Shown here piece after piece: positions 1-55,856 of a DNA stretch of 64,000 nucleotides (its first letter is position 1; the number at the start of each line of letters is the position of its first letter). Position numbers and translations under genes: made by a program. This DNA is from Selaginella tamariscina (lineage: Eukaryota > Streptophyta > Lycopodiopsida > Selaginellales > Selaginellaceae). The stretch covers positions 35,001 to 99,000 of the forward strand of contig PUQB01000094.1 of NCBI GenBank assembly GCA_003024785.1, written 5' to 3'. Below the pieces are notes generated by a model. It ran no database searches and had not been told where the DNA came from. It saw only the letters and a program-made list of their open reading frames with translations.

Positions 1-1025
1 ATGAAAGTCTATAATTTAGTAAATTATTTAATTATCAAATAATTATTTATAAAAGGAATTTTCAATTGTTAATTATTTTTATTTTGATGATCTTGTTGTA
101 ATTGTTTATTAAAAAGAATTGATGTAAAATATTTTAGATTTTATTTTTTAATTTATTCTTCAAATCATCACATGACATGATTATATCTTTGTTATTCTTT
201 AATATCATTACAATCACATTATTTTCATAACACTGAGTGAAGAAATAAATATTAGAATCATTAATGAATGAATATTCTCACTCATTTAAAATTTCTTTAT
301 ATAAGATAATTAATATAACTATTAATTTGAAATTGTTGTGTTATATTCATATAATATAAGAATATTTATCTTATCTTTTATAAAAGAAAAAAAAACCTCC
401 TTAAAGGTTTAAGAAAAAAAAATTAATCATAACAAAACTTTACTTATAATGAAAAACAGTAAATCACAACAAATTATTTAATGTTCTTATTAAGTTATTA
501 TATGTAAATATTTAAAATATATATTAGTGTCATATATAAATAGATTAAAATATATATAATCAAAGGTTAAGGTCTGAATTGGCAATGTAGTAGTAAATAT
601 AACATATTTTAGGACTTGAATTTGAATTATATATACATAATATATATTTATGTAATATGTGTGTTATTTGAAGATTTGTTTATCTCTATATAATTTATAT
701 TAATTTTTTATTGTTACAATTTTTCAAAATAAACTTTATAATTTAAATAATATCTACAAATATACAATCCACTTAAATTTATTTTTTTTAAATTTAAAAT
801 ATCCTCCAACATGTACCACTACAGCTCTAATGGTACTAATATATAGTAGCAATTTTAAAAAAATTTCTCAACATGTAGCATTGGAGCTTCCCGTGGTACC
901 AATTGAAGGATATTAAATATTATAATAACATTTATCACTAGAGCTGTAGTGGTACCAGTTAAAAATACTATAATAAAGTTTAAAATATGTTATAACTGCT
1001 ATTAATGATACTAAATGGAAGATAT
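1..1025. other. AT-rich intergenic DNA
   Basis: No coding region is supported here. The stretch is very AT-rich with long A and T runs. Its only clear structure is an inverted pair of 15-bp arms, TACCACTACAGCTCT at 814-828 and its exact reverse complement at 940-954, enclosing about 110 bp. This could be the edge of a small fold-back element that I cannot place in a family. The right end abuts the 5' LTR of the family A element. Confidence 0.5.
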
Positions 1026-1186
1026 TGTAAGATCCACATGTACGACTGCATGTGCACATACTATTATTAGCGTAATGGATTTTGATAATTATCGAATTGG
1101 ATTCAATCTGAATCACTCGCTCTTATATATAAGTTAGGGTTTCTGAACTAATGGATATACACATTTTTATATTCCGAGCTCTCACA
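1026..1186 (+). repeat. 5' LTR of family A element
   Basis: It matches 5631-5791 and the truncated copy at 8576-8731. It contains a TATA-like CTTATATATAAG segment around 1121-1132. The sequence just inside it holds a short inverted repeat, GAGGTG-AGGGG-CACCTC (about 1193-1210), also present in the copy downstream of 8731. This may be structural RNA near the primer site. No standard tRNA primer match was recognised. Confidence 0.85.
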
Positions 1187-1392
1187 TTGGTAGAGGTGAG
1201 GGGCACCTCTAATTGTCCCTACGGAGTGCTCAGATTTATGTCTTTTTATCAATTTTCTTTGTCTTCTTAGGTTAGCTTTTCCATTGTCTAGATCTATTCT
1301 TTCTTGTAGATTTTGTCTTTTCTTCGTCATGATCCACAACAGGCAAATCCCTTGTCTGTGGAGCAGTTACTCATGCAGTTGTTGGATGCCAT

Positions 1393-2267
1393 GTGTATGC
1401 AATTGAACAATCATCTCAATTGATGGTAGCATTCACAGTCCAGGGTACTCCTCCTACTCATGTTGCAAACCCCCGTGTCCGACCAGATTTCTTTCGTGGA
1501 AATCCTGGAGATGATGTGTACCATTGGTTTGACCACTTCACTGTGGTTGCCACATATCATTCGTGGGACGGTGCTCAGTGTTTGCGCGAGTTTCCTACTT
1601 GTCTTCAAGGGACGGCGTTGCAGTGGTACAATGGTCTGGACGTTGCAACTCGTGAGATTGGAATATTCTTCCAGAGATCTTCAAACGTGCATTTGGGCAT
1701 GCGGACGACTGTGATGATGCTTTTCAGCAGTTGCATCGTATTCGTCAGGAGCCATCTGAGTCGGTGATGCAGTTTGGTGTTCGCTTTCGAAGCCTTTTGC
1801 TGCGTGCAGAACCTAACATGTCGGAACGCATCAAGTTAGGTATGTTGTGGCCAGCACTTCGTCAAGACCTTGTGGGGCTTGTGCATGCACTAGCTCCAGT
1901 GACTCTTGACGATGCTTTGAGGCTGGCACAACGATATGAGTCGTCACCTCTCCCACTTGCGCCTTCACGTGCTCTTTCCACTCATGTTGGGGATGGACCT
2001 GCTCCGATGGAGGTTGAGGCTGTTGCCGCTCGTGTACCAGCACAAGGTGGGCCCGTGGACGTGCAGTTCGTTGTTGGGCATGTGATGAGGTTGGACACAC
2101 GTATCGGCGCTGTCAACGGTTTCCCGATTGGCGTCCCCCATTTCCAGGATGGAGGCCATGGCGTCAACAACGTCCGGTTGGTGCTGCTGCAGTGGAAGGT
2201 TGTGATGCGGTGGATCTTCCGGGAAACGACGAATCGCACGAGTAGAGGAGGGTCCTCGTGCGAATAA
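1393..2267 (+). pseudogene. family A gag (frameshifted)
   Basis: Two overlapping frames carry a retrotransposon Gag: 1393-1700 contains RVRPDFFRGNPGDDVYHWFD and LQWYNGL, and 1731-2267 continues with a capsid-like segment (ESVMQFGVRFRSLLLRAEP). In this family Gag forms the particle that packages element RNA. One frame change around 1655-1730 separates the halves. The truncated copy at 8576-9428 covers the same region, which confirms that it is element sequence. No intact CCHC zinc knuckle is visible. Confidence 0.7.
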
Positions 2268-2271
2268 ATTA

Positions 2272-5200
2272 GTGACCCCTCCGTCTTTCTTTCGGGAGTA
2301 TCATCAAGGGGTTCACTCGGCACCAAATCATCCGGTTTTCACTTTTCAAGCTCGTTTAATCACACCACGTCCTGTTTTCCTTTCAGTGTTGGTGGATACA
2401 GGTTCAAGTTTTCCAATGTTTCTAATCAGCCTTCATCCATTTTCCCTTATTATACGGAACACACTCATGCTTGTTCGCGATGAAGTGGACATTGTTGTTC
2501 GTGTGGATGATCGTGAGCTCGAGCTTCAATCTTTGCGGGTGGTGCCGAGTCAAGCTTTTCACCTTATTCTTGGTATGGATTGGTTAACTCGCAATCATGC
2601 CAAGTGTGACTTTGAAAAGTCTCCCCCTTGTTTGACTCTCCCTCGTCTTTCTTCCATTCCTCTTACTTCTATTCCACTTCGTCCATCTGCTTCCACCTCT
2701 GCTTCCATCACTTTTGTCTCACCCTATTTCCAACCATTTTCCCTTCATGCTCTTCCTTTCCTTCTCTGGATCCATCAGATGATCGTCGTGCTGTAGTTGT
2801 TGATCAACTCAAGAAGGAGTATGCTGATCTTTTCAACTTCGACTTGTCATCTGGGGCCAAGATTGCGACACGCCACCCTATTCCAACTGGAGATGCTAGG
2901 CCAATCAAGGTACCTGTTCGGCGTCGTCACCAAAGGAGCTCAAGATCTTACGAGCGAATGTCAAAGAGATGTTGGAGAAGGGTGTTATCCGGAAGTCTCG
3001 AAGTCCTTGGGCGTGCGAACCTCACCTTGTGACGAAGCCTGATGGGAGCGTTCGATTCTGCATTGACTATCGCCCGTTAAATGAGGTAACCGTCTCAGAT
3101 GTGTACCCACTTCCTCATACTGCAGACCTTTTGGATCGACTGGGGCGGAGCCGTTGGTTCACCAAGTTAGATCTCGCATCTGGATATTGGCAAGTTCCGA
3201 TGGCTGACATGGACATTCCCAAGACTGCTTTTCGAACACCATTTGGCCTGTACGAGTTCTTGGTGATGCCTTTCGGTTTGAGCAATGCTCCAGCAACTTT
3301 CCAGCGTATGATGGACGAGGTTCTTTGCGACATGCCGGAGGTGACTGCCATTTCATCGATGATGTTTTGATCCATTCGGATGGAACGTGGGAGGAGCATG
3401 TCGGTGATGTACGTAAGGTTTTGGATCGGTGCGAAGTTGGTTTGAAGTTGAAGCCATCTAAGTGTGTGTTTGGATCAAAGGACACCACTTATCTGGGTTA
3501 TCGCATTTCACGTGAAGGTTTGCAAGTCGATCCTGACAAACTAGTTGCAGTTTTGAAGTTCCCTACGCCAAAGTGTGTGAATGATGTGCAACGCTTTCTT
3601 GGCAAGGTACAATATCTGGGTCGTTTTGTGGATCATCTTTCAGATCGTACTGCACCGTTGCGCGGTTGTTGAAATCGTCAATGACTTCTTTTGTTTGGTC
3701 TAAGGATTGCAAGCAGGCATTTGCAGATCTCAAAGAGTTGTTGACGACTCCTCCAGTTTTGGCGTACCCGGATTACACTCGTCCTTTCATCTTGCGTGTA
3801 GATGCTTCTGACATCGGTCGGGGGCGTATTGATGCAGGAGAGTACGAGTGTTCCTGGCCAACGACATCCCATTGCGTACATCAGCCGTACATTGCAGCCA
3901 GCAGAAATTACTCCACGACAGAAAAGGAGTGTCTAGCAGCAGTTTGGGGTTTTGAGAAGCTCCATGCCTACTTGCATGGTTCGCGGACGTTGTTGGAAGG
4001 CGATCATGCAGCAGTCACTTCGTTGTTGAAGCGAAAGAATTTGATTGGGCGTACTGCTCGGTGGGCCTTGAAACTTCAAATTTACGACTTTGAAGTTGTT
4101 CATCGCCAGGAGTTCCATGGCTGATGCTGATGCTCTTTCTCGGGCTCCTCTTCCACCTTCTCTCTCTTCTGTTGCCCCAGAGGAACCAGTTGTTCCAGCT
4201 TCAGTGGACTTTTTGGATGAAGATTCCGTACCATCAGCAGTTGCTGTGCTTGACGTTCAGTGTCCGCAGAATGCAGAGTTAGATTTGCCGTCTTTGGATG
4301 AGGTTCGGGAAGCTCAAAAGGTTGAGCCGTGGATTCGAAGGCTTCGTGATGGGTTTGAGAATCCTGCATCACTTGCTGATGACTTGCCTTTCAGGCATTT
4401 ACATTCGCAGTATCGCCTTCAGGATGACCTTCTTTATTTTGTGGGGACTGATCCAGATGATCCTTTGCGGTTGGTGGTGCCTTCAATCTTCATTCCACGC
4501 TTCCTCCATGCTTACCATGACTCTCCTATTCTTGGCGGGCACATGGGACATCGTCGGGTGATGGAGAAGCTGCGCAGATCTTTCTATTGGCCGGAGTTGC
4601 GAGAGATGTGATTCGGTATGTGCGTAGCTTGTGTGGTGCCAAGCTCGCAATACTCCCCATGTGCTTCGGAAGGACGGTTGGAGTCAATTGCAGTTTCTCG
4701 TCCATTTGAATTGGTGGCATTTGATTTGATGGGACCTTTTCCGCGGTCAACTGCTAGTTATTATTGCTTTGATTACCTAACTCGTTGGGTAGAAGTTGGT
4801 GCTCTTGCTAGTGCGACTGCTTCTGCTGTTGGTCAGTTTCTCCTTAATCGGGTCGTGTTTCAGCATTCTTGTCCGGAGCGAATTCTCTCGGATAATGGTC
4901 CTGCATTTATGGCTGAGGCATTTCATGTTTTGACATCTCGATAGGGATACGCCACACTTTCACAAGTGCTTATCATCCTCAGACAGATGGTTTAGTGGAA
5001 CGGCTCGTCAGAACCTTCAAGGGGATGATCGCGAAGTATGTGAACTTTCAACATTCGATTGGGATGGTTATCTGCCGTCTCTCCGATATGCTTATGTCAC
5101 TGGAGTTCAAAGTTCCATTGGTACTTCCCCATATAAGCTCTTGTATGTCATGACCGCCAAGGAGTTGGGTTTGCCTTCTCGGTTACGTGAGCTGTTGATG

Positions 5201-5560
5201 CTAGTCGTGGGATCGGTATCTGACGAGCATTCTTCCATTGGTTCATGTGGAGTCGGCAAAACATTTGGGCTGCGTATAAGTAGGACAACAATAACGCTAC
5301 AACTCGCACCATCATCCTCCTAGGAGTACAAGGTTGATAAACTAGTGTTAGTTCGTTTTCCCAAGTTTACGGTATGTGGTTTAACTAAGAGTCTCCTTCC
5401 TCAATGGAAATGACCGTATTGAGTGCTACGGCAAGTAGGGTTGCAGGTTTATGAGGTTCGGCACGACATTCAACCCGATCCTCCAGAGATTGTACATGTG
5501 CAACAGTTGAAACATTTGTACAACAGGAACAAGTTGTGCCGCCTACAGATCCACCAGTGC
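2272..5560 (+). pseudogene. family A pol: protease, RT, RNase H, integrase (multiply broken)
   Basis: The domains are in order but spread over several frames. An aspartic protease has LVDTGSSF and later LILGMDWL (2380-2590). RT follows with FCIDYRPLNEV, FTKLDLASGYWQV, and a catalytic box reading FIDD in place of the usual YxDD (about 2970-3660). RNase H carries LRVDASD and STTEKECLAAVW (about 3690-4120). An integrase N-terminus has GHMGHRRVMEKLRRSFYWPEL, and its core has FDLMGPFP and ILSDNGPAF (about 4500-4945). Frame changes or stops lie near 2800, 2960, 3350, 3670, 4610 and 4940. The coding signal fades by about 5560. Confidence 0.8.
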
Positions 5561-5630
5561 CTCCTTCTATGTTCCTCCAAATCCGAGCCCAACCCTAACC
5601 AACTTACATCCTTCCGAAAGGAGGGGATGA

Positions 5631-5791
5631 TGTAAGATCCACATGTACAGCTACATGTGCACATACTATTATTAGTGTAATAAATTTTGATAGCCGTAAG
5701 ATTGGATTCAATCTGAACCACTCACTCTTATATAAGCTGAGGGTTTCTGAACTAATGATATATACACATTTCTATATTCCGAACTCTCACA
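5631..5791 (+). repeat. 3' LTR of family A element
   Basis: Begins TGTAAGATCCACATGTACAG and ends CTCTCACA, with scattered substitutions relative to 1026-1186. A purine run, GAAAGGAGGGGATGA (5616-5630), sits immediately upstream and is a good polypurine-tract candidate for plus-strand priming. Confidence 0.85.
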
Positions 5792-6116
5792 ATATTAAAT
5801 ATTAAAAGTGGTATGTTTTAAAATTTAGTTAACATGTATTAAAATTTCTCTTAACACGTATAAACAAGTATATGTGCAATAATTAAAACATAAGTAACAA
5901 GTATTGTGTTATGTTTTAAACCTTAAGCGATGCCCAACCAACTCACTATCAAGCAACAATGGATAAGCGCGACAGCAATCACACGAGAGACTACTACCAT
6001 ATTTATATTTTTATTTCTACCTAGCATTAACACATCTAATTATGCTTAAAGGGCTGCAACCATTTTAAAAAAAAGTTTATGGCGACAACTGAAGTTTTCT
6101 TGCCTCGGAGACCACC
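5792..6116. other. intergenic DNA downstream of the PHD-containing gene
   Basis: AT-rich sequence with no coding signal. It would contain the 3' untranslated region of the minus-strand gene that ends at 6117. I see no other feature. Confidence 0.4.
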
Positions 6117-8489
6117 TTAGGTACTGCCAGTAGACAACCGCTTCCGCTTGCCCACAGCACTTTTTCCACCCTTGGCATAGCAGAAAAGGCATTCGAAGTT
6201 GTGGTTGGGTTTGTACCTGTCCCCAGCACAAGCCGTGTGTACCCAACACTTGCACCTATCGCACTGGACCCAGTCGTCCAGTTCTCCTTCCCCAAGGTAG
6301 CGTTGATATTCTGAACATTCCACGCATGAATCCTGAAACGTAAAAACGTCAGTCTGCTATGACAAAACGAAACGAAACAAGAGCAACCTCCTCTGCGGCC
6401 GGCTTGTCCTTCTTCACCAAGCTGCATTGTTCGTCAATGACCTTGAGCGCAGTGCAAAACTCAGCGAATGAACAAACAACCTCCTCATACATCTTTCCAC
6501 CTGTCGTATGCCCCAGGTTCTCGCCATGAACAATCCAGGCCAGAAGCGTTCGCAACTTGCCAACCTCTGGGATTCCTTTCTGCAGCTCAGTGTATAATCG
6601 GAGAGCCACTTCAGGCGTCTTGCTGTGAATCTTGACCGCGTTTGTTGCAACCGAAACCTGGATAACCACCACAAATTCCCCATCCACGTAGTACAAGTCC
6701 ACACCCCTGTGGTTGAACTCCTTCGGAACGACCAGAATTCTCTTGCTCGGATACTTCTCTAGTATCTCCCACGAGAACTTGCCAGTAACCACCACTTCAG
6801 GATCTATAACCAGCTGCCTTGTTCCCAAATTCAAGTGCGGCCGGTGTAGCGCTGCCGCCAAAATGGTAGCCATTTCTGCATTCCAACCGATTCGGGCCGT
6901 GTTGGTGTCTGACAGTACCCGGGATGTCCATTTCTTTTATCTCACTCAGAGCATCTGCGGTTTCTTCCTGCTTCAATCTCTTGGCCAGGAGAGCCATGGT
7001 ATAGGGCCTTAGAACTGGTACCAGGCACCTCCCGCGACCACCTGGACTTCGGTAAAAACACCTCGTGTCTAAAACTTGCGACAGCTTCCAGATCTCCTCG
7101 CCAAAGAGAGCCTTCAGTAGCTGCTTCCTTCCAGCTTGATTGGGCTGACGAATGTACTTCCGTGTCCAGCGTGTGTACCGTTTCAGGTCCCTGTTACTTC
7201 TTCGATCGCGTTCGTGATGAGATACTTGTGTACCAGCCTAGGCACGAAGCCAGTGTACCAGTACAAGTCGATAAGCTCCTCATCAGAGAGCTTTATCTCC
7301 AAGTGGTCCAGGTACTGGAAAAGTTCAAGGGCCTAACACAAAAGTACTCTTATAAGTTCAGTAACAAAGAAACAACTGCTTTACCTCATATCCGCCGCAT
7401 ATGAACAGATCGACCGGCCGTTTGTCGTGTCTGAGGTCGCTCCTGATTGCCCTCCCCACCGAAGCACAGACAAAAAGAGTGCAGCATTGTTGCAGAGCCC
7501 ACAGTTTATCCCTGGCACAGCTACGAAGTGCTAGCGAAGGCTTCCGGATTCCTGCAGTGTCGTCGTCATCGTCCAGATCAACATCGTCAACAACCACATA
7601 GATGCGATCACGTATGGACCTGCTTCCCATAAACAACTCCAAGTCGGCAAATGTCTCGGCAGCCATGATATCTTGCACGTCCTGCTTGTCGTCAATATAA
7701 GCCAGGAGTAGACTATTTCTCATATGCAAAAAAGGATCGCGGACGAACTGCACATAATCGGCGAAGACAATTCGGCAGAAACTGTCCTGAACCTCAGCAT
7801 CTTCCTGCTCTTTTCCACCGAATTTCTTGAGAGAAGGTACTGGGTGCTTCTGCCGAGCCTTTGCAAACTTCTGGTGCAGGTCGACAACGGCAGCCATGAC
7901 AAAAGTCGTTTTTCCCGAGCCTGCAGTGCCAGTAATCACTCCAAAAGAGGGACCATCCGTTCCCATGGGTTGACCATGCTTAGGAAGGAGACTCTCCAAA
8001 ATGAAGCTTTCCACGGAAGGAGCGACAGCACGACCCATGAACTCAAATGTACGCTAACGAAGAACAGAGCAGAAAATTGAGCGAGCTTGATGTAAGAACT
8101 TTGGTGCATACCTGATCTAGAGACAGCACAGGACGAGGAACAGCGCTGTAGAAACTTTTCATGTTCTCAAGCCATGAGCCATTATCTTGTCGTGAACGGA
8201 TTCCGCCAGACTCACAAAGTCGTATTTTTGTCGCTTAGCTGCAGCGAAATGGAGTATTAGATGCTTGGAAATCTACAATCTTGGTACCTGACAAGTAGCC
8301 CTCATCACTAAGCCTCCTGGCGAAGAGAAGGGGCACTCCCAATTCTCGCACCTGCTCGTAGCTCAGACCTTTGAGATCTTCCAGAGACGAGATTCCTCCG
8401 TCTCTTAGCATCGCCAAACACCGCCTGATCAGCTGCTCCTTGCCGGGAAATCGCGACGACAACAAGGATTCGAGCTCCTCCTCCGCCAT
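6117..8489 (-). CDS. Crinkler-RHS-like P-loop NTPase/nuclease-like protein with C-terminal PHD finger
   Basis: I resolve the exons, in transcription order, as 8489-8288, 8233-8112, 8053-7385, 7332-6388 and 6332-6117, about 715 codons. Introns of 54, 58, 52 and 55 nt have GT-AG ends; intron 1 has a CTAAT branch-like site. The 67-residue head is a helical SAM-like module (SLEDLKGLSYEQVRELGVP). A P-loop NTPase follows, with Walker A GTAGSGKT near residue 150 and Walker B IYVVVDD near 260, then a helical arm with LYWYTGFVPRLV. Next comes a region resembling the restriction-endonuclease fold of CR proteins (RGVDLYYVDGEFVVVIQVS, about 6660-6710). The last exon is a C4HC3 PHD finger: CVEC, CDRC, WVHTAC, CLFC. 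Single-base frame changes near 7190 and 6917 break the long exon, either assembly errors or early decay. In CR proteins the NTPase and nuclease act together, often in nuclei; the PHD suggests chromatin targeting. Family call good; role inferred. Confidence 0.7.
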
Positions 8490-8575
8490 AGCCCTAGTTA
8501 GGGTAGAATATAATGTTTATATTTATGCTTAAGAAAATGCATATTCCTTTTAATATTTTAATAAATATTTAAGGA
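8490..8575. promoter_or_regulatory. short leader between a family A LTR and the CR-like gene
   Basis: Only 86 bp separate the start codon at 8489 from the LTR at 8576-8731, so the original upstream region has been displaced. Any promoter close to this gene must lie in this AT-rich leader or in the inserted retroelement, whose own transcription would run the other way. No TATA box can be assigned with confidence. Confidence 0.35.
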
Positions 8576-9428
8576 TGTAAGATCCACGGCTGCATTGCAA
8601 ATATTATTATTAGTAATGGATTTTGATAAGTTCGGATTGGATTTAATCTGGACCACTCGCTTTTGTATATAAGTTAGTGTTTTTCTGAACTAATGGATAT
8701 ACACATTTTTTTATATATTCCGACTCTCACATTGATGGAGGTGAGGGGCACCTCTAATTGTCCTTACGATTGCTCAGATTTGTGTTTTTTTTTTTCTTTG
8801 TCTTTTTAATCTAGCTTTTCCATTGTCTAAATCTATTTCTTTTTTTAAATTTTGTCTTTTCTTTGTTCATGGATCCACAATAGGCAAATCCCTTGTTTGG
8901 AGCATTACGCATGTAGTTGTTGGATGCCATGTGTATGTAACTGAACAATCATTCTCAGCTAATGGTAGCATTCACAGTCTAGGGTTTTACTCATGTTGCA
9001 AACCCCCGTGTCTGGTCGGATTTCTTTTGCAAAAATCTTAGAGATGATGTGTAACATTGGTTTGACCACTTCAATGTGGTTGTCACATATCATTCATGGG
9101 ACAGTGCTCAATGTTTGTGCGAGTTTCCTACTTGTCTTTAAAGGATAGCGTTGCAGTGGTACAATGGTTTAGTGTGAAGATTGAAATATTCTTTTAGAAA
9201 TCTTCAAACGTGCATTTGGGCATGTGGACGAATGATGCTTTTCAGCAGTTGTATCGTATTTGTCAGGAGCTATCTAAGTCGGTGATGCAGTTTAGTGTTC
9301 GCTTTGCTGCGTGCAGAACCTAACATGTTGAAACACATCAAGTTAGGTATGTTGTGGCCAGCACTTCGTCAAGACCTTGTGGGGCTTGTGCATGCACTAG
9401 CTCCAATGACTCTTAACGATGCTTTGAG
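8576..9428 (+). mobile_element. family A retrotransposon fragment: 5' LTR plus 5' half of gag
   Basis: 8576-8731 matches the 161-bp family A LTR. The following sequence matches 1187 to about 1925 of the full element with many small deletions, then stops abruptly after GATGCTTTGAG at 9428. Everything 3' of mid-gag is missing, so this is a truncated copy, not a solo LTR. Its frames are destroyed. It lies head to head with the CR-like gene. Confidence 0.8.
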
Positions 9429-11811
9429 TAGCGATGTCAAGTTGTAAAACTATATGCATAACAAAATCCCCACAAGTGCGAGTTTTTGAAAAAGACGGTC
9501 CAACCCTGGACAAAAAATGATACCATGTCAAAATTTACTATAATAATGAATGAAAATTCCCTGTTTGATTTCTCTTTCCGTATCCTTAAGTCTTTGTTGA
9601 TGAAGCAGAATGCCGTTGACATCAATAATACAATATGGCCATGGATAACAAGGTGCAACGTTGCCTCTTAAATGGTTTGTAACTCACTTGTTTAGTCCCT
9701 TTCAAATTTATCTTTTGACGTTATATTGTTGCCGATCTCTTTATCATTTATTTATATATCATCCTTACAAGATTCAGCTATTACAAGCACTAAAGAAAAT
9801 GGTTCAAGAATTGAAGGCGATAAAAATAATAATGTAAAAATTGAAGGAGTTAAAGATGGTGGTTCAAAAAAACTCAGCAATAAACTCATTTTGTAACTTG
9901 CCAAGACAAGTGGTCCCAATAGTGATGATTTTTGAGCGCTACATTGTTATACATTTCCTGTATGAACTCTATTATTCTGACATGTGGCACAAGTAATTTT
10001 TATCATACCCCTCTCTTACCTCATGCCACTGTTGAAAATCCTTGTTCTCAATTATTTTATTATATTTATAAAATGATTATTAATTAGCCTTATAATTACC
10101 AAGGTATATTATTTACCTTGTTAATGTGTGACTATGTTTGAACTAAAAGCTTCTTTAGTCATTGAGAATTTATTTTTCTATACAAATATACACGAAATAT
10201 ACAAAAATGCCTTATGTTACACTCATTTATAACTATCTATCACTCTAATAATTCATTAATAATTCATCTTCACTATTACTTTTTAAGCCGAGCAAAGGAG
10301 GTTTTAACCACTTGGAAAATTGTTTGACATCTTTCATTTCCATAGTCAATAGAGTAATTGAATGTTTTGTGTTTTTTGATATAATTTTAGTATGATATCT
10401 AATTCAGGATTGTTCTCAAACTTTGACATTAAACCGGATTCCTTCTCAAAGCTATCGCACTTCTCGGAAGAGAATTTTCTTAAATACTCCTATATGGGTT
10501 TGTTAAGGTAATCGGTTGAGAACCTCTTTATCCACTTGTTTAAGTCATTGACCTTGATTTTATCTTTTTTAACGGCAAACACACATGTATCCCAAATGTA
10601 ACACTTCTTCAAAACGGAATCCTTAGTACAGTAATAAAAAATCCATGCATCATTATGAGGACCCATGATTAAGTTGACGATGCTACATGTAGCTTGACTT
10701 GTAATGTTTGGATAACGTACATTGCCGAATATGTCCCTCTTAGTTATCAATGTATTGGATGGAGATTCATGCCCATTGGAGCGAAGGCAAATGCCTAACC
10801 AGTTGCTTGAAAGTTTGAAATTGTTTGCACATTCCTAATAACCAAGTGAACAACAGTATCAATACACCTAGGATTAGCATCGTTCATGTAAAATCCAGTT
10901 CATAAATGTTTGTTCGTCTTGGTGAAGACGAAAACAAAGGTATTGGTGACATGAGCAAAAATCAAAAAATAAATACCTGAAGACGTATGTATCAGGTAAG
11001 TGTGCAAAAATTAAATAATAAATTCTTTCTTTGTGCTTCTCCATCAAATCTTCTAGTGCCCTATTTGAAGAAATTTTTTTTAATACCTGCCTATCATAAA
11101 TATTTAAAAAGGTTTTCTGCATGCAGTGATGTTAACCAATAAAGTCTTTGAATTTGATAACAAACATCTATAGAGCTTATTACGATTCTTAATGTCTTCC
11201 TTTATCAGGTTCAACTCTATTCTCCATTGTTAAAAGACCACAATGTTTTTCTTTTTAACATTGGCATACAATAAATTCTTGTCCTGATCTTAAGTATTAT
11301 CATTATGCTTTTGGTGACTTTATCTTAGTGCATTTTCTAAAACTTAGACAAAAAAGATTCATTCTAAGTTTTTTTTGTCTTTATAAAATTATTAAGCAAG
11401 TTGGTTCTCATGTGCAAAATATCAAAACTTGTGAAGCCTACATCAGTTATTCATGTGTGTGATTAAAACTGTAATATGTCAAAGATTACAAAGCCTCATT
11501 GGTTGTTAGTGTGATGCAATCACAAAAGTCTGTTTTACAACAGGTAATAAGATAGATACAAAGGTTAAATAACTATAGTTTATTTTGGAAGTTAGTAGAC
11601 TCCTAATCTACAACTTATGTCTGGCAACTTAATATAGTGTCTATCCTTGTAACAGTCTAGAGTTTCTGTTGTGTAGTATTTTGGAGTTTTATAATATTAT
11701 CTTCCAAATTCAAATTACATTAATATTTAATTAAATGAGTTATTTCATTTTGTTTTAAGCTACTAATTCTTAATTATACAATATAACTAAGAATGTTATC
11801 TCTAACCTTGA
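9429..11811. other. AT-rich intergenic DNA with unassigned minus-strand ORF remnants
   Basis: The only coding-like material is on the minus strand. At 10750-10490 a reading frame contains SIVNLIMGPHNDAWIFYYCT and continues weakly to about 10290 through one stop. At 11122-10874 another runs to a stop after MNWILHERC. Composition is protein-like but I do not recognise a family; a decayed transposon protein is the likeliest explanation. The rest shows no structure. Confidence 0.35.
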
Positions 11812-13906
11812 CTACGATCCTGCAACCTGGATGCCTGTTGATGTCATGATCCCATCAACAGGGTGATACGTTGTGTACTGCACAGCTCGTTTGTTTCGGA
11901 CAAATTGGTAGCTTTTTATAGCAGAATAAAGCTTTGTAAGAACAAGAAATGTGTTAACATCAGAAGGTTCGTCTCTTCCCAGAAAGCAACGACGACAGTA
12001 AGAAGGTGGGGGGCAGCGGTGCAGCAAACTTGCAACTCTCCAGTAGAGCGGACAACAGCAACGGTGAAGTGAACCGAACTTCCAAAGTGCCACTCTTCTC
12101 CAAGACACCGTCGTCAATGGCTTCCAAAACCGTGTCAAGATCGTCCACGCCGGTGGACCCGTCGAGGCTATCGATGCAACGCAGCATAACACTCTTGATG
12201 CGGTCGGATAATTAGCAACTACACAAACCATTTTCGCATAAACCGTATCGTTGAATACATAGGATTTCACACGTCCGCTTCTCACCAACTGGAGCCAATG
12301 CTCAAAGGATCGCACTTCCATACGTTGCAAGAAGTCGCAGCAGCTACCAACAAGGCCAGTGTGTCCGGACGTAAGCTCGATTATGTTTTCGGAAATTGCT
12401 GAGATGGCTTGTCGATGTTGTTCTTCATCTTCTTCACCTTCCAAGGTCATCTTAAATAACAAGCTCCGGTCCCGGAAATAGTCATCCAGCATCTTTGCAA
12501 CCTGCTGCTCATCCGCATTCATCACCACACTGGTTACGCAGTAGGCAATCTCCTCTCCGGCTTAAGGGAAGCGAAACGAGAGGCTGTCTCTAGGAACAAA
12601 CTTGGGAAGTACCGGCTCCATAGTTTCTGTCTTTGTGGTCTGCCTAAACTCGCAGCTCTCATTGGAGATGTCAGAACACGGCGTATTACAAAGAGTGAGG
12701 GCTCTTATGTACCCTCGAGTCTTCAACACAGTCACGATCCACTTCGCCTGCATCTTTCAGGCTGGTCACCCCATCTATCCAAGCAAGCTGCGAGAGAGAA
12801 CTGGAAGCTCGGTTGAGAAGTTGCGCTTCATCAACTAACCATATCACATTCCTGAAATCTTCCTCACCGTCTGGAACTCTAAACACATCAGTCACCGCCG
12901 TCACTTTTGGTGGTCTCTTGAGTTCACTGTTTTGTACGCAGATCTTGTCCACCAAGAGGCTGTAAAAATCGTTAGCAGCTTCCATTTCGTCTTTCCGTTT
13001 GTTGTTGCCCAAGTCCACCATTCTATGGTCGAGTGTAGTCATCACCACCAAGTAACCTCTCTCCTGGAGTGCGATTCCCAGTGTTGTGAGCAGGGTGGTC
13101 TTCCCGGACTGCCATGGCGCTGTGAGAAGCAGCCTTCTTCCGCCCTCAATGTCACTGAGAAGGCTATCAAAATCTGGCCACCGACAGTAGTAATTGAAGT
13201 CCAAATTGACAATTGCACCGCCAAAAGCAAACGTGCGAGGATGCAAAGATTGCCGGCGACGACGAAGCAGAAGATTGGTACCTGAAAAGTAGCCCAAAAT
13301 ATATCATGGTTTAGTGAACGCAGGAGAAGACAAAATCAGTGCTACATGTAGGCATGGCTAAAGCCACGTAAAAGCGAACAGAACAACAACACAACATCTA
13401 ACACATCCAGAGCACACAACACCTGTGACACAATCCCTATGACATCAGCCAAACACTCAAGGCAAAAGATCCAATAGCCATGGAACTGTGTACATCTCTG
13501 GAGCTGCTCAAAGACGGCGTCTGGTCTGCACTACAAACAGCCGCAAACAAGGGCAAAAGCACATCTTGGGCAAACGTACAGACACAGCCCTTTGAAACAA
13601 CGGCACACTAAGAGATGCAACATGGAGCACAACAAGAAACAGAAGAGATCATGACCAAAACAAGCAGCACAACAAAATAGGACCTGGGAGATTTGTTGCA
13701 GTCGCTCTGTATACGTACTGACCGGTCCCCAGATTTTCGCCAAGAACTGCATCCCCATCGGCGTACTCAAGAATCCCAACTCCATAAGCCTTCTCAATAG
13801 GTTCTATCACCTGTTCCTTTGGCAGTGGAGGCTGTTTGAACTTCACCTCTTTCAGAAGAGCGCCGTCAGCTGAGCGCACCGCAACGCAGATTTCTTGCTC
13901 CGCCAT
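11812..13906 (-). pseudogene. second Crinkler-like P-loop NTPase gene, with ubiquitin-like header, broken
   Basis: Exon 1 (13906-13723) encodes about 61 residues starting MAEQEICVAVRSADGALLKE, like the ubiquitin-like header of Crinkler proteins. I chose this ATG over the one at 13912 because the other CR-like gene also begins MAE. A 441-nt phase-1 intron (13722-13282, GTCAGT to CAG) leads to exon 2 from 13281. Exon 2 carries Walker A APWQSGKTT near residue 115 and Walker B VIWLVDEAQLL, followed by an arm with GHTGLVGSCCDFL. Breaks: a frame change near 12750, an in-frame TAA at 12562-12564, another frame change near 12200, and possibly one near 11980. The helix resuming in a second frame at 12187-11960 (DDGVLEKSGTLEVRFTSPLL) is the expected end of the NTPase module. 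No nuclease domain or PHD finger follows. Family call is good; the copy is probably non-functional unless the breaks are sequencing errors. Confidence 0.65.
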
Positions 13907-15299
13907 GTACAAAGTTAGGGCATGCCAGTATATTCCTGAAAGATCCCTCCTTAAAAGAATTTCGAATATTCATTTTTAAGCAAAATTATGCTCAAGGAAG
14001 CAGTCAGGGTTAAAAAAGGTGCTAGTCATATGTGTAACCATTTTTTTTATTCAACATTTTTGCATGTGTACGATACGCATACATCCATATAGAAATGTGT
14101 GTTCCTAGATGTTAGTTTTTATCTGTACAGTATTAAATAGTATGAATATATAGCTACTAATGTGTTGTACCTCCATATGTGTATACGCATTCATGTCTCT
14201 GTTCTGTACACATATATAAATATATGTCTGCATACATATACAATACATACACATTATTAGCTTTAGCAGAATGTTATCTATTAGTTGTCATGAAAATGTT
14301 ATACGAATATAACGTTTTAATTACCGATGTTCGTATGTTCATGCGTCTGTCTGTGGTGTGAATTATAAATGCATATATCAGAGTTTATTACAAAAGGAAA
14401 TGTCTGTGTTGTGTTGTTGCACACAATGAAACATATATAATTAGTTACACACGCGTGTGTACGTGTGCGCGTGTTAACTTCTTCATCATGGACAAGTTCT
14501 CGACGACGATGATGAGAATAGCAACTTTCATATATCTTTCACATATATATAACCTTATATACAACAGTCCATGTCCCTGTATATATTACATTTTAATTAG
14601 TTTATATTTGCTTTTCATATATATTTCAAATACATATAGCCATGTATACAACAATATAGCAGTCCATGTATATATATAGACCATATATATATCACTAATC
14701 TCATGCCCGTGTGATTTTTAAATTTCTAATTCTTTATATAAATTTGAATATTCTCTATTCAAATTTAAAATATAGAGTGCGTTATAACAATAATTATTTA
14801 TATGCAGTGCGGTGCAACAATTTGTTAAAGTACAACAACTAACTTAACTATTGGGCCAAATGCACAAGTGGTTAACTTTGTTAAAAGTTAACATCAATGG
14901 TTAAGTTAGTTATTGTACTTAAACAAATGTTCAACCACAATGGCATGAATTAATTGCATAAAAATAACTATTATTATAATGCACCATACAAATTAATTAA
15001 GTTTAACAACAAGAGTTAATCATCGGTGACCCACAATTATTAACCACTAAATATAATATGAATGCAAATATAAAGCCTGGATTCAAATTATTGATATACA
15101 TGCTATATTATATAACAATATATAACTACTGTAAATAGATTAGATTGATATAGGGGTATATACATGCTATATACATACATGGACTAAGTATTTGAATCAG
15201 TATGGGCTCTATATATGGACTATTAAATTGACTATATATAGAGACTTATACATGGACTGCTATACATGGAGTGTTGTATGGATATACATATAAATGCAA
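13907..15299. other. AT-rich, microsatellite-like intergenic DNA
   Basis: Alternating ATATAC/TGTGTG-type sequence with no supported gene. The CATATATAC-rich stretch at 14160-14700 resembles 50040-50300 in style and may share origin with the CACTA interior. An imperfect inverted pair built on TTAACTTTGTTAAAAGTTAA lies near 14873-14892. Confidence 0.4.
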
Positions 15300-37913: not shown

Positions 37914-38886
37914 ATGGCGATTTTGAGCACTTTCAACGCGAGCACCAAATGTTGCTTCATGAGCTGGCCACTTTGCGCCAAGTGGTCAGATCTGCAAGGT
38001 TCCACCAATGCGGCACATGCAGCTGCTGATGCATCCTCCAAGGCTGCTGCGCAGCTCTCTCTCAAGCATCGGTGGTTTCCTCTCCATCGAACTTTTCTTC
38101 GGAGCCGAAGATCAGCATGCCAGAAAAGTTCAGTGGCAATCGCACCGATTTCCAAGGTTTCCTGAATCAGATCCGGCTCTTGATCCGCATGCAACCACGC
38201 CGCTACTCGACGGATGCACAAAAGGTTGGCCTTTTGGCATCCTTACTAAGTGGATCTCCACGAGCTTGGGTTGCTCCCTTGCTGGAGCGTGACGACCCAT
38301 TGATGGAAGACTTTGAAGGTTTCGTGGCTGCCTTTGAAGCCTGCTTTGGAGATCCTGATAAGTACCGTTCTGCATGCACAAAGTTACGGAGGCTCACACA
38401 AGGATCCAGACCAGCTTCCGTTTATGCATCCGAATTCAGCAATTGTGCACGAACATTCCATGGGACGAGACTGCATTGATCGAACACTTCCGTTTTGGGC
38501 TGAGGGATGATGTGAAGGACCTTCTCCTTACATTACCGGATGCTCAAACGTTAGCGGAGATCATGCAACAGGCCGTTCGCTGCGACAACCGTTTGTTCGA
38601 GCGCCGTCAGGAAAAATTCCGTCAGCAGTTCCTGCCAACCAATCCTGTAGCCGTAGCACATGTTCCTACGACACCTTCTGGAGCAGTTCCTATGGAGGTT
38701 AACAAATCCAAGCGTGGCCCACTTTCAACTGCTGAGAAGCAACGTCGTCGGGGTGAGAACCTATGCTTGTATTGTGGTGCAGCAGGACACAAGGTGGCGG
38801 AATGTCCTAATAAAGCCAGAAAGTTCAAGACGCGTGAAGCCGAAGCTGAAGTTCAGTCGGAAAACTTCAATGTCCACTTCGTCTAG
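37914..38886 (+). pseudogene. B1 gag: capsid and CCHC zinc knuckle
   Basis: Gag coats and packages the element RNA. The start is assigned by comparison with B3 (ATGGCCGATTTTGAGCAC at 54901); here one base is missing just after the ATG, so the frame shifts at once. The capsid core includes KFSGNRTDFQGFLNQIR and LLSGSPRAWVAPLLE (38117-38290). A further frame change lies near 38370. The zinc knuckle CLYCGAAGHKVAECPNK (C-x2-C-x4-H-x4-C) is at 38763-38813, and the frame ends TAG at 38884-38886. Pol continues in the -1 frame, overlapping this end. Confidence 0.8.
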
Positions 38887-41800
38887 GAGCCGCGAAGTTG
38901 GACGTAGGTGCAGGCTCCATTGGTGCTGCTCATACCATTCCATCACTCAAGTTTCCTGTACACATTCGCCTCAATAATCGAGAGCTCAAGGAGTTTGCCC
39001 TGTTAGACACTGGTGCAAATGCATGTTTCATGGATGACACTTTTGCAGCTCAGCATGGCATTCCGGTGGTGAAGTTGAAGCGTGCAGTTCCTGTAGAGGT
39101 GGCCGATGGTCGTTTGATTGCTTCTGGCGCAGTTACCCACGCTACCACACCTCTCTCTTGCAGTCATGGTGCATTCAACTGTTCGATTTCCTTCAACTTG
39201 ATCAAGACTCGGTCGACTCCCATCATTTTTGGCATGCCATGGTTCGTTGTTGCAAATCCGCAGATCGACTGGAGGTCTAGGACGCTCACGTTTTCCTCTC
39301 CAGCAGCCAGGATCAATCCTGTACCTTCCTGCGTGCAGGATACATCCTTGGTGTCTGAGGCAGTACAAGCTACAGGATTGACCGTGCCTGTTCCTGTACC
39401 AGTGTTGAAGACTCCTCGACAGGATTCACCTCATGTCAGTTCCTCAGCACATCCGCAGGCTCTCTCCACTCCTGTAAGTTTGCGGATTCCTGTACAGGGT
39501 TCTTCCAATCCTGTATCAGTGTCGAAGGTTCCTCCTCAACAGGATCCACCTCCTGTTGGTTCGTCAGCACACTCACAGGCTCTCCTCACTCCTGTGCATC
39601 CACGGACTTCTGTACAGGATTCTTCCAATCCTGTACACTGTCAACATCCACACAGGTTTCTCCCAATCCTGCCTCCTTTTGTTACTCTTTCTGTTCCACC
39701 CCCCAAGATCCTTCCTCTTTTTCAGTCACAGCTCCCTCCTTCTCCTCTCCGAGTTCTTACCACTACCATGCATGAACTTGCCACTGATCCTGCTCCTTTC
39801 CACCTTTTTGCCTTTCAAGTAACTCCTACGTCCTCTTCTACCTTTCCTGTGTCTGACTCTCCTGTTTTTCAATCTCCTTCTACTCCTTTCCTTCTCCTCC
39901 TTCTTCCCTACCATCCAAGTATCACGACTTTAAGGACGTTTTTGACAAGCACAAGGCTACAGTTCTTCCTGTTCACAGGTCCTACGACTGTCCTATTGAT
40001 CTTGCAGAAGGAAAGACTCCACCGTTCGGACCGATTTACGCATTGTCACCCACAGAGTTGGAGGTTCTTCGTCAGTACATCGAGGACAACTTGGCATCCG
40101 GCTTCATTCGTCACTCAAAGTCCCCTGCAGGAGCGCCTATCTTCTTTGTCAAGAAGAAGGATGGGAGCTTACGTTTGGTTGTGGACTACAGGGGTTTGAA
40201 TCAAGTCACCATTCGGAATCGGTACCCGTTGCCATTGATCCCGGAACTTCTCGATCGGCTGCGAGGAGCAAAGGTGTTCACGAAGATCGACTTACGAGGG
40301 GCCTACAACCTTGTACGGATTCGTCCAGGCGATGAGTGGAAGACTGCCTTTCGTACAAGGTATGGACACTTCGAGTACACGGTGATGCCTTTCGGCCTTA
40401 CCAATGCCCCAGCCGTGTTCCAACACATGGTGAACGACATCTTTCGTGACTTCTTGGACCAGTTTGTGGTGATCTACCTCGACGACATTTTGATTTTCTC
40501 CAAGGACCAGGCGGCACATGACAAGCATGTACGATTGGTTCTACAGCGGCTTCGAGCATGGCTGTATGCGAAGTTGGAGAAGTGTTTTTTCGATAGGGAT
40601 TCTGTGGAGTTCTTGGGCTACATCGTCTCTCCTGCTGGCGTTTCCATGGACATGCACAAGGTGAAGACCATCGTGGAGTGGGAGAGGCCCAAGTCTGTAC
40701 GAGATGTACAATGTTTCCTTGGCTTTGCAAACTTCTACAGGCGGTTCATACAGGACTTCTCCAAGCGTGTACTTCCACTCACGGAACTCACCAAGCGCAC
40801 AGAGGTTTTTCTTGGTCCGACAAGGCGGAACATGCATTCACAACACTCAAGGACACCTTCACGACAGCTCCGATTTTAGCACATCCTGATCCTTCTCGTC
40901 CTTTCTTCGTTGAAGCAGATGCCTCGGATTTTGCAGTAGGATCCGTCCTATCACAAGTTGGAGAAGACAAGTTGCTTCATCCTGTAGCTTTTCACTCTCG
41001 TAAGTTCCTTTCGGCGGAGATCAATTACGAGATTCATGACAAGGAACTCAAGGCCATTGTGGATTCGTTCGAGGAGTGGCGGCATTTCCTGGAAGGTGCT
41101 GTGCATCCTGTACAAGTTCTTACGGATCACAAGAACCTGGAGTATTTTCAAACGGCTCGAGTTCTCAGTCGACGACAGGCTAGGTGGGCGGAGTTCCTAT
41201 CACGTTTTGATTTCGTCATTGTCTACAGGCCCGGTTTTCGGAATGGCAAGGCGGACGCATTGTCTAGGCGCTCTTACCTTGCAGGTCCCAGGCGATCCTG
41301 CATATGACTGTCAAAGACAAGTGCTGTTGGGTCCTGATCGATTCCGGCTTGCGGCACTACAGGTTCATCAGGCTCCAGCAGATTCAACACTTCTACAGGA
41401 CATCCGTTCGCAGTTGGCTACAGACGACTTGGCAAGGAATGTGTTCTCACACATTAGTCCTGACATTGCAAGCTCCTCTTCCTCCAGTTCCCGTTCAGAC
41501 TACACGCTGTTTGCCATACAGGACGGACTCCTGTACCGGGAAGGTCTCCTGTACGTTCCTGTTGGTGTTTGCAGGACTCGTGTGGTACAGGATTGTCATG
41601 ATACCCCGGCTACAGGACATTTTGTGTGGCCAAGATAGTTGAGTTGGTGACTCGCAACTATTGGTGGCCTGGGTTGCGAGGTTTTGTGGAAAGGTTTGTA
41701 CGGAGTTGTGACACCTGCAACAGGTCGAAGATGCCTCGTCATGCACCTCTGGTCTTCTTCGTCCTCTTCCTGTTCCTTCTGCTCCTTGGAGATCCATTTC

Positions 41801-42865
41801 TATGGATTTCCTCACAGATCTTCCTCCTTCTCGCGGATTTGATGCAGTTCTTGTGGTGGTTGACCGTTTCACCAAACAGGCTCATTTCCTACCATGTAAC
41901 AAGACTGCTACAGGCCAGACAACTGCTGAGTTGGTGATCCGCGAAGTGTTCCGACACCATGGTCTTCCTGAGAGCATTGTTTCTGATCGAGGTCCACAAT
42001 TCATGTCCAAGTTTTGGCGAGAGCTTCTCCGGAGTTACAGGTTAAAGCGGATCTTTCTTCAGGATATCACCCGAAACTGATGGGCAGTCAGAACGCACAA
42101 TTCAGACCTTGGAGCAATATCTTCGCTGCTTCATCAGTTACCAACAGGATAATTGGTTGGACCTTCTTCCTATGGCGGAGTTTGCCTACAACAACTCCAT
42201 TCACGCATCTACAGGCCAGACACCTTTCTTTGCTCTTACAGGCCACCATCCACGTTTTGACTTTGCTCCTCCTGCTTCTCCTTCTTCCGCTCCTGCAGTA
42301 CAGGATCGTCTCCAGCATCTTCGTCAGGTACAGGATGATCTCCGGGTTCATCTTCAGCAGGCACAGGAAGTACAAGCATCATGCTGATGCTCCGTCACCG
42401 GCACCTGCATACAAGATTGGTGATCTCGTGTGGCTTCTTCGTCGACACATTCGCACCAACAGGCCTTCTTCTAAGTTGGATTTTCAACGATTGGGCCCTT
42501 ACAGGATTGTGGCGGAGGTTAATCCTGTAGCTTTCCGACTCGAGTTACCATCTACGGTGAAACTTCATCCTGTGTTTCACACCTCTTTGTTGGAGCCGTA
42601 TCATCCTTCTTCTCTTCCTGGTCGTGCTTCTTCTCCTCCCCTCCTGTGGTCATTGCTGGTGAACCTGAGTACGAAGTTGCAGCCATCCTTGATTCTCGTC
42701 TTCATGCCGCCAACTTCAATACTTGGTGGATTGGAAAGGTTATTTGCCTACCGATCGCACTTGGGAACCTGCATCCAACTTACTCCATGCTTCTTCCAAA
42801 GTTGCTGCCTTCCATCGGCATTATCCTGCTAAACCAGGTCTAAGACTCGTGGAACTCGTCCTTAG
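38887..42865 (+). pseudogene. B1 pol: protease, RT, RNase H, integrase, chromodomain
   Basis: Protease active site LLDTGANACFM near 39000. A Pro/Ser/Val-rich linker follows (39380-39900). RT contains [30 protein letters not shown] and the catalytic YLDD (about 40120-40790). RNase H has [15 protein letters not shown] and [10 protein letters not shown]. Integrase starts with the HHCC segment ending CDTCNRSKMP (about 41640-41740); the core has MDFLTDLPPSRGFDAVLVVV and [15 protein letters not shown] (41800-42030). GPY/F-type and chromodomain segments end pol (42480-42850). Frame changes near 39940, 40800, 41290, 41640, 42050 and 42650 are single-base indels, most of them intact in B3. Pol makes and inserts the DNA copy; a chromodomain usually steers insertion to modified histones. 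Confidence 0.85.
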
Positions 42866-50975: not shown

Positions 50976-53250
50976 GCAGGCATGTAGACGATGACGAAAT
51001 CAAAACGTGATAGGAACTCCGCCCACCTAGCCTGTCGCCGACTGAGAACTCGAGCCGTTTGGAAATACTCCAGGTTCTTGTGATCAGTAAGAACTTGTAC
51101 AAGATGCACAGCACCTTCCAGGAAATGCCGCCACTCCTCGAACGAATCCACAATGGCCTTAAGTTCCTTGTCATGAATCTCGTAATTGATCTTCGCCGAA
51201 AGGAACTTACGAGAGTGAAAAGCTACAGGATGAAGCAACTTGTCTTCTCCAACTTGTGATAGGACGGATCTTACTGCAAATTCGAGACATTTGCTTTAAC
51301 GAAAAAAGGATGAGAAGGGTCAGGATGTGCTAAAATCGGAGCTGTCGTGAAGGCGTCCTTAAGTGTTGTGAATGCATGTTCCACCTTGTCGGACCAAGAG
51401 AAAACCCCTGTGCGCTTGGTGAGTTCCGTGAGTGGAAGTACACGCTTGGAGAAATCCTATATGAATCGCATGTAGAAGTTTGCAAAGCCAAGGAAACATT
51501 GTACATCTCATACAGACTTGGGCCTCTCCCATTCCACGATGGTCTTCACCTTGTGCATGTCCATAGAAACACCAGCAAGAGAGACGATGTAGTCCAAGAA
51601 CTCCACCGAATCCCTGTCGAAAAAACACTTCTCCAACTTCGCGTACAGGCCATGCTCGCGAAGCTGCTCTAGAACTAGTCGTACATGCTTGTCATGTGTC
51701 GCCTGGTCCTTGGAGAAAATCAAAATGTTGTTGAGGTAGATCACCACAAACTGGTCCAAGAAGTCACGAAAGATGTCGTTCACCATGTGTTGGAACACGG
51801 CTGGGGCATTGGTAAGGTCGAAGGACATCACCGTGTACTCGAAGTGTCCATACCTTGTACGAAAGGCAGTCTTCCACTCATCACTTGGACGAATCCGTAC
51901 AAGGTTGTAGGCCCTCGTAAGTCGATCTTCGTGAACACCTTTGCTCCTCGCAGCCGATCGAGAAATTCCGGGATTAATGGCAACAGGTACCGATTCTGAA
52001 TGGTGACTTGATTCAAACCCGTATAGTCCACAACCAAACAAAACTCCCATCCTTCTTATTGACAAAGAAGATAGGCGCTCCTGCAGGGGACTTTGAGTGA
52101 CGAATGAAGCCGGATGCTAAGTTGTCCTCGATGTACTGACGAAGAACCTCCAACTCTATGGGTGACAATGCATAAATCGGTCAAAACGGTGGAGTCTTTC
52201 CTTCCGCAAGATTAATAGGACAGTCGTAGGACCTGTGAACAGGAAGAACTGCAGCCTTGTGCTTATCAAAAACGTCCTTAAAGGCGTGATACTTTAGAAG
52301 AGGACGTATGAGTTACTTGAAAAGCAAAAAGGTGGAAAGGAGCAGGATCAGTGGCGAGTTCATGCATGGTAGTGGTAAGAACTCGGAGAAGAGAAGAAGG
52401 GAGCTGTGACTGAAAGAGAGGAAGGATCTTGGGAGGTGGAACAAAAGCAGAGTAACAAAAAGAGGCGAGATTGGAAAAAACATGTGTGGATGTTGACGAG
52501 TGTACAGGATTGGAAGAATCTTGTATAGGAGTCCGTGGTTGCGCAGGAGTGGGGAAAGTCTATGAATGTGCTGACGAATCAACAGGAGGTGGATCTTGTT
52601 GAGGAGGAACCTTCGACACTGATACAGGATTGGAAGAACCCTGTACAGGAAAACACAAACTTACAGGAGTGAAGAGAGCCTGCGGACGTGCTGAGGAACT
52701 AACATGAGGTGAATCCTGTCAAGGAGGAGTCTTCAACATTGGTACAGGAACAGACACGGTCAAACCTGTAGCTTGTACTGCCTCAGATACTATGTATCCT
52801 GCACACAGGAAGGTACAGGATTGATCCTAGCTGTCAGAGAGAAAAACGTGAGCGTCCTAGACCTCCAGTCGATCTGCGGATTTGCAACAATGAACCATGG
52901 CATGCCCAAAATGATGGGAGTCAACCGAGTCTTGATCAAGTTAAAGAAAATTGAATAGTTGAATGTGCCATAACTGCAGGAGAGAGGTTCGGTAACATGG
53001 GTAACTACGCCAGAAGCAATCAAGACGCTCATTGGCCACCTCTACAGGAACTGCACGCTTCAACTTCACCATCGAAATGCCATGTTGAGTTGCAAAAGTG
53101 TTATCCATGAAGCATGCATTTGCACCAGTGTCTAACAAGGTAAACTCCATGAGTTTCTCGATTATTAAGATGAATGTGTACAGGAAACTTAAGTGATGGA
53201 ATGGTATGAGCAGCATCAATGGAGCCTGCACCTATGTCCAACTTTGCGGC
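50976..53250 (-). pseudogene. B2 pol 5' part: RNase H, RT, protease
   Basis: RNase H has [20 protein letters not shown] (51240-50985). RT runs about 52060-51400, with the catalytic motif as YLNN in place of YLDD near 51740-51730, a loss-of-function change. The protease segment near 53180-52800 keeps LLDTGANACFMDN. A shortened linker lies between. Frame changes occur near 51290, 52040 and 52130. Confidence 0.8.
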
Positions 53251-54900: not shown

Positions 54901-55856
54901 ATGGCCGATTTTGAGCACTTTCAACACGAGCACCAAATGTTGCTTCACGAGCTGGCCACTTTGCGCCAAGTGGTCACGATCTGCAAGGTTCCACCAACAC
55001 GGCGCATGCAGCTGTGATGCATCCTCCAAGGCTGCTGTGCAGGCTCTCTCTCAAGCATCGGTGGTTCCTCTCCATCGAACTTTTCTTCGGAGCCGAAGAT
55101 CAGCATGCAGAAAAGTTCAGTGGCAATCGCACCGATTTCCAAGGTTTCCTGAATCAGATCCGCTCTTGATCCGCATGCAACCACGCCGCTACTCAACTTA
55201 TGCACAAAAGGTTGGCCTTTTGGCATCCTTGCTAGTTGGATCTCCACGGGCCTTTTGCTGGAACGTGACGACCCATTGATAGAAGATTTGAAAGGATTCG
55301 TGGTGCCTTTGAAGCCTGCTTTGGAGATCCCATAAGTACCGTTCTGCATGCACAAAGTTACGGAGGCTCACACAAGGATCCAGACCAGCTTCCGTTTATG
55401 CATCCGAATTTAGCAATTGTGCACGAACATTCCATGGGACGAGACTGCATTGATCGAACACTTCCGTTTTGGGCTGAGGGATGACGTGAAGGACCTTCTC
55501 CTTACGTTACCAGATGCTCAAACGTTAGCGAGATCATGCAACAGGCCGTTCGTGCGACAACCGTTTGTTCGAGCGCCGTCAGGAAAAATTCCGTCAGCAG
55601 TTCTGCCAGCCAATCCTGTAGCCGTAGCACATGTTCCTACGACACCTTCTGGAGCAGTTCCTATGGAGGTTAACAAATCCAAGCGTGGCCCACTTTCAAC
55701 TGCTGAGAAGCAACGTCGTCGGGGTGAGAACCTATGCTTGTATTGTGGTGAAGCAGGACACAAGGTGGCGGAATGTCCTAATAAAGCCAAAAGTTCAAGA
55801 CGCGTGAAGCCGAAGCTGAAGTTTAGTCGAAAAACTTTAATGTCCACTTCCTCTAG
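54901..55856 (+). pseudogene. B3 gag
   Basis: Starts at an intact ATG (54901; ADFEHFQHEHQMLLHELATL), showing the true N-terminus of family B Gag. Frame changes follow near 54975, 55160, 55250, 55330 and 55530, each a missing or extra base relative to B1. The zinc knuckle CLYCGEAGHKVAECPNK is at 55736-55786. Confidence 0.8.

Follow-up and report, generated by a model that had tools for sequence, protein, structure and literature searches.

A gene family in the Selaginella tamariscina assembly with a P-loop ATPase, a nuclease-like region and a C-terminal cysteine finger, mostly of PHD type

The best-known role of CR-type proteins is that of secreted effectors. BPTF and BAZ2 are PHD-bromodomain chromatin proteins, which are remodelling or transcription factors and are not known to have a nuclease-like region. 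As far as the CR section of PMC5289972 describes them, CR proteins consist of a header, a P-loop NTPase and a REase in this order, and land plants are among their carriers; the same header/ATPase/nuclease order appears in the accessible text of PMC11342252, where related REase domains have an active-site E-x-K. The CR proteins of eudicots contain Myb-type HTH headers, and intracellular action on invasive DNA has been suggested for them (PMC5289972, CR section). The family described here resembles CR proteins in the order of header, P-loop NTPase and nuclease-like region and in its many copies (PMC5289972, same section). In contrast, it has a C-terminal PHD finger or cysteine knuckle, a bromodomain in one branch, and Q-x-S/T in the core of the nuclease-like region. 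It shares with the eudicot Myb-header proteins the combination of a plant CR-like protein and a DNA-directed module; however, this module is a DNA-binding header in eudicots, as outlined in PMC5289972, and a C-terminal part of the histone-reading kind in the present family. Similar to BPTF and BAZ2, it combines a PHD finger and a bromodomain in one chain, and the bromodomain resembles the BAZ2A, BAZ2B, TAF1 and BRD structures. The CR section of PMC5289972 names neither PHD nor bromodomain, and "PHD" occurs 0 times in the main text. A literature search on crinkler together with PHD finger, bromodomain or Selaginella (PMC6119762, in the text available) yielded no described fusion, and with thin coverage of subscription journals this absence is weak evidence.

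The window is the whole stretch of 64,000 nucleotides that was analysed, from contig PUQB01000094.1. Translation and comparison with copies divide its minus strand from 8489 to 6117 into five exons. Exon 1 (8288..8489), delimited by eye from its ATG and GT donor, contains a short N-terminal header segment, and exon 2 (8112..8238), obtained by alignment with paralogues, has a 10-base deletion. Exon 3 (7385..8053) is the P-loop NTPase exon, identified by its open frame and by Pfam matches to nSTAND_NTPase5 (5e-7) and AAA_16 (9.7e-5), both below cutoff. The Walker A motif GTAGSGKT (7907..7930) and the Walker B motif IYVVVDD (7583..7603) were read from the translation; both lie in the single open frame 8053-7385, ahead of the nuclease-like region. 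Exon 4 (6388..7332) comprises a helical-looking linker and the nuclease-like region, with two single-base shifts; the segment RGVDLYYVDGEFVVVIQVS is present in frame 6936-6388, and the core D..Q-x-S is at 6652..6708. The last intron (6333..6387, GT..TTTCAG, phase 0) is conserved in close copies, and exon 5 (6117..6332) contains the PHD finger and the stop codon. A strict pattern search placed the full set of C4HC3 zinc ligands at 6180..6326, the single occurrence in the six frames of the window. None of 60 windows generated with an order-1 Markov model contained this pattern, and a chance origin of the finger is rejected. The Walker motifs, the nuclease-like segment, the finger on a separate last exon and the intron before it are thus as the initial annotation had described them. 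Its single multi-exon model holds for the exon parts and fails for one continuous protein from the window copy, because of the deletion and the frame shifts.

The window copy is damaged. A second copy, 99% identical, is located on contig C1073 and shares the exon 2 deletion, which is absent in all 11 other copies displayed for this stretch (loci L003-L008 and L011-L015) and results in an in-frame stop unless another donor is used. The two single-base frame shifts of exon 4 are not present in the C1073 copy. When the window gene and 14 other copies were translated exon by exon from exon 2 to exon 5, at least one frame break was found in 14 of the 15, and in five (L008, L010, L011, L012, and L015) breaks lie inside the finger. 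L006 on contig C534 is the sole copy open throughout, with 761 residues including the first exon and the whole domain order. Single-base breaks at such frequency fit either decay or long-read assembly error, and part of them may be assembly error. Two further loci, L016 (C576:319653) and L017 (C959:21448), have close matches to the ATPase exon only, at 77-78% identity and with stops, and are left-over pieces of the family.

The possibility that the PHD exon is part of a separate gene, named beforehand as the result that would overturn the fusion, is rejected. When 300,702,823 bases in 1391 contigs were searched for the PHD exon, 20 matches were obtained, and every one of them falls within 15 loci that also match the close nuclease-like exon; conversely, all 15 loci that have this nuclease-like exon, complete or split up, also match the PHD exon. 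The match was absent at the ATPase-only loci C576:319653 and C959:21448 and at the nuclease fragment C1073:81226. In the 15 close copies, the intron ahead of the finger begins with GT, ends with AG and varies by a few bases, and its place and phase, judged by eye, are the same in L031, L033-L037, and L041, which are relatives 38-40% alike. Where the ends are intact, the junction reads GE|ECLYC in these relatives versus AEE|DSCVEC in the window. L032 contains the nuclease-like region and the PHD finger within one open frame of 380 residues, and the fusion is therefore independent of any splice guess. The loci of the family support the predicted joining of ATPase, nuclease-like region and PHD finger far beyond the window gene.

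The finger of the window copy has complete ligands, and C, C, C, C, W, H, and C are invariant across 10 aligned finger copies, taken from the window, from L051 and from eight of the 13 distant loci that bear a finger. The Pfam PHD profile (cutoff 24 bits) scores L032 at 27.3 and exceeds the cutoff in L043 and L045 over part of the profile, whereas the window (20.2), L051 (17.4), L031 (17.7), and L033 (19.6) are below it. The best matches among solved fingers are KDM5B (3.1e-4) and PHF2 (1.2e-3), and DWVQCD is common to the window finger and KDM5B. AlphaFold gave the window PHD exon a pLDDT of 45. A tryptophan precedes the third cysteine in the window, L051, L031, L033, L037, L045, and L048, but not in L032, L043, and L039. 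Because this residue is kept unevenly, binding of methylated H3K4 is a guess that would apply to some members only.

A comparison of two close copies shows purifying selection on both the nuclease-like and the PHD exon. For the window and L051, dN/dS is 0.24 (p 4.3e-5) in the nuclease-like exon and 0.21 (Fisher p 0.0098) in the PHD exon, and the ATPase exon of this pair gave no sign of constraint (1.17, p 0.85). Exon 4 of the C1073 copy against L006 gives 0.22, and the nuclease-like half of L036 against L031 gives 0.40 (p 0.017). Constraint on the PHD finger is shown for one close pair only, since the comparisons of L037 (0.61, p 0.35) and L033 (0.50, p 0.22) with L031 are non-significant. The bromodomain of L036 compared with that of L033 gave no sign of constraint either (1.41, p 0.77).

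The Crinkler-RHS label of the initial annotation is carried by the domain order of header, NTPase and nuclease-like region; on the other hand, the core residues differ, and neither a Crinkler nor an RHS model was listed in Pfam and NCBIfam scans of the proteins of the window and its relatives. Membership is likely. The NCBIfam scan of seven proteins gave just two chance-like matches below cutoff. The core reads E..D..Q-x-S/T..H in place of the expected E..D..E-x-K..Q, and the REase active site E..D..E-x-K is not found. In the family alignment, the D of the GVD motif is kept in 9 of 12 rows and replaced in 3, and conservation reaches at least 90% for the core E, Q and H and for the second D (YY-x-D). 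Cleavage may be lost because Q-x-S/T replaces E-x-K; some CR branches reportedly also have Q-x-T. A single-sequence AlphaFold model of the nuclease-like region, built without an alignment, has a pLDDT of 40. The PDB profile search gave one weak match for this region (arginine kinase, E 0.066), which is probably chance, and 0 matches for the ATPase. The earlier idea of a chromatin-guided nuclease is supported in its chromatin part by the fusion with PHD and, in one branch, a bromodomain, while "nuclease" would be a predicted activity.

Distant relatives with 28-42% identity repeat the same domain order. Twenty such loci (L031-L050) were read, and about 17 further matches, mostly fragments, are outside the count. 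After the nuclease-like part, 12 of the 20 have a PHD-type segment, seven a cysteine knuckle, and one (L039) a loose short finger. The PHD finger is complete in one frame in four loci (L031, L032, L033, and L037), interrupted by a frame shift in five (L035, L036, L041, L043, and L044), and without a visible last cysteine pair in L045 and L048. In L034, a lysine-rich insertion displaces the last cysteine pair. The knuckle C-x9/10-C-x3-C-x6-C-x2-H is present at the end of L038, L042, L046, L047, and L049; L040 and L050 have a weaker knuckle without the middle cysteine, spread over two frames in L040. Pfam gave no family name for the knuckle in the three proteins scanned (L046, L049, and L050). 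In a tree of the nuclease-like region alone, with 15 of 35 genes, the four knuckle rows stand apart from the other 11 (98/95), with several long branches for which the program warns of false joins.

The N-terminus varies as well. Another first exon is present in 7 of 11 displayed copies and another upstream sequence in the remaining four (4/11), BLASTP found no match between exon 1 of the window and the first exon of L051, and the Pfam matches of the header are weak and below cutoff (SAM_2 0.098, S_100 0.023). As both the first exons and the C-terminal fingers vary, the ends of the protein are exchanged and the middle is kept. Exchanged ends around a constant middle would be the pattern expected of conflict proteins. 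The genes form a large family whose host is probably the plant, with the window gene as one damaged member. Contamination is unlikely because members with short introns occur on many different contigs. Viral contigs gave nine pattern matches, and 0 of these were confirmed as relatives.

A bromodomain sequence, which is not among the observations of the initial annotation and is absent from the window copy, lies within the nuclease-like region of 6 of the 20 distant loci (L033-L037 and L041). In L033-L037 it follows the first helix (RIGWNAE) and precedes the DILEIKP stretch; L041 displays only its end. In L036, the sole copy scanned, Pfam identifies the bromodomain at E 4.4e-19 and 68.7 bits versus a cutoff of 21.7, and many solved structures are matched, including polybromo, TAF1, BRD4, and BAZ2 (BAZ2A and BAZ2B). 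On its upstream side, the L036 bromodomain is joined without a break in the open frame to the first helix of the nuclease-like region. The downstream junction, in L036 as in the other copies, is a phase-0 intron by eye. The Asn of the YNQ motif, which has a role in acetyl-lysine binding in bromodomains, is kept in L036. Since the close relative L031 is without it, the bromodomain was probably acquired inside the PHD-bearing branch. Its presence in one branch strengthens the chromatin part of the earlier reading.

The window gene is located between LTR-like repeats at 5626-5747 and 8632-8682, detected in a search of window positions 1-14000 for repeats of at least 40 bases. It has a reverse transcriptase (2900-3370) to one side, and gag-side sequence is repeated on the opposite side. 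The retrotransposon at 1021-5747 has gag and reverse transcriptase matches and LTR-like repeats, and is probably of Gypsy type; its 5' side occurs again in part at 8632-9428, on the far side of the window gene. Another P-loop ATPase-like gene, with weak Pfam matches, is present on the minus strand at 11812-13303 (LLLTAPWQSGKTTLL, VIWLVDEAQ), and tblastn found no similarity between it and the present family. Further retrotransposon genes lie at 38850-42832 (protease, reverse transcriptase, and a Tf2-like SH3 domain), 51508-52116 (reverse transcriptase), and 57439-59332 (RNase H and integrase). The 365-residue frame at 55414-56511 has no match to any protein family. On contig C534, five close copies are arranged in tandem with a spacing of about 6.5 kb.

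The best reading, to which we assign a probability of roughly 0.5, is that the genes encode chromatin-docked ATPase-nuclease-like conflict proteins. As many members have a PHD finger and one branch a bromodomain, the proteins would probably dock on chromatin. The proteins start with a replaceable header, continue with a P-loop ATPase and a nuclease-like region, and end in a cysteine finger, mostly PHD; the protein would act in the nucleus. The PHD finger would bind the histone H3 tail, the bromodomain of one branch would add acetyl-lysine binding, and together they would dock the protein on open chromatin, where the ATPase may switch the nuclease-like part between loading on DNA and release. 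The likely setting would be a genome-internal conflict, in which the proteins oppose mobile elements or serve them. We infer that the protein is nuclear, binds histones, cleaves DNA, is switched by its ATPase and takes part in conflict. The more specific picture of Crinkler-RHS-like weapons against mobile elements, with exchanged end modules of which the PHD finger and bromodomain find marked chromatin, is tentative and somewhat doubtful.

A loss of cleavage opens a different route, in which the proteins were co-opted as chromatin-bound ATPase regulators, for example to keep mobile elements silent. The Q-x-S/T core, the D of GVD replaced in a quarter of the rows, the PHD and bromodomain segments, and a nuclease-like exon constrained nonetheless all agree with such a role; however, the strong conservation of core E, Q, H, and the D of YY-x-D goes beyond the needs of a mere scaffold, and the ATPase exon of the pair tested shows no detected constraint, and we consider this route unlikely. 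Chromodomains steer the insertion of some retrotransposons, and the genes could likewise be cargo or parts of mobile elements whose chromatin readers direct insertion into open chromatin. The many copies, the five in a row on C534 and the place of the window gene between LTR-like repeats beside a reverse transcriptase point in this direction, as does the link of ATPase-nuclease pairs to mobile elements in PMC5289972, in the part available. Yet the repeats resemble those of the neighbouring retrotransposons and not an element built of the window gene, and tandem arrays do not need transposition, which leaves this explanation improbable. Least probable of all is a decaying family with no present function and a relic domain order: the breaks in all close copies except one and the ATPase and bromodomain exons without detected constraint would fit decay, but L006 is open throughout, the PHD and nuclease-like exons are under constraint between close copies, and the same order recurs in relatives at 28-42% identity.

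A family in which the ATPase and nuclease-like parts are retained and the end is formed by histone readers suggests a role in the organism's own nucleus. Through the PHD finger and the bromodomain, the family offers a direct handle on how such proteins choose their target sites.
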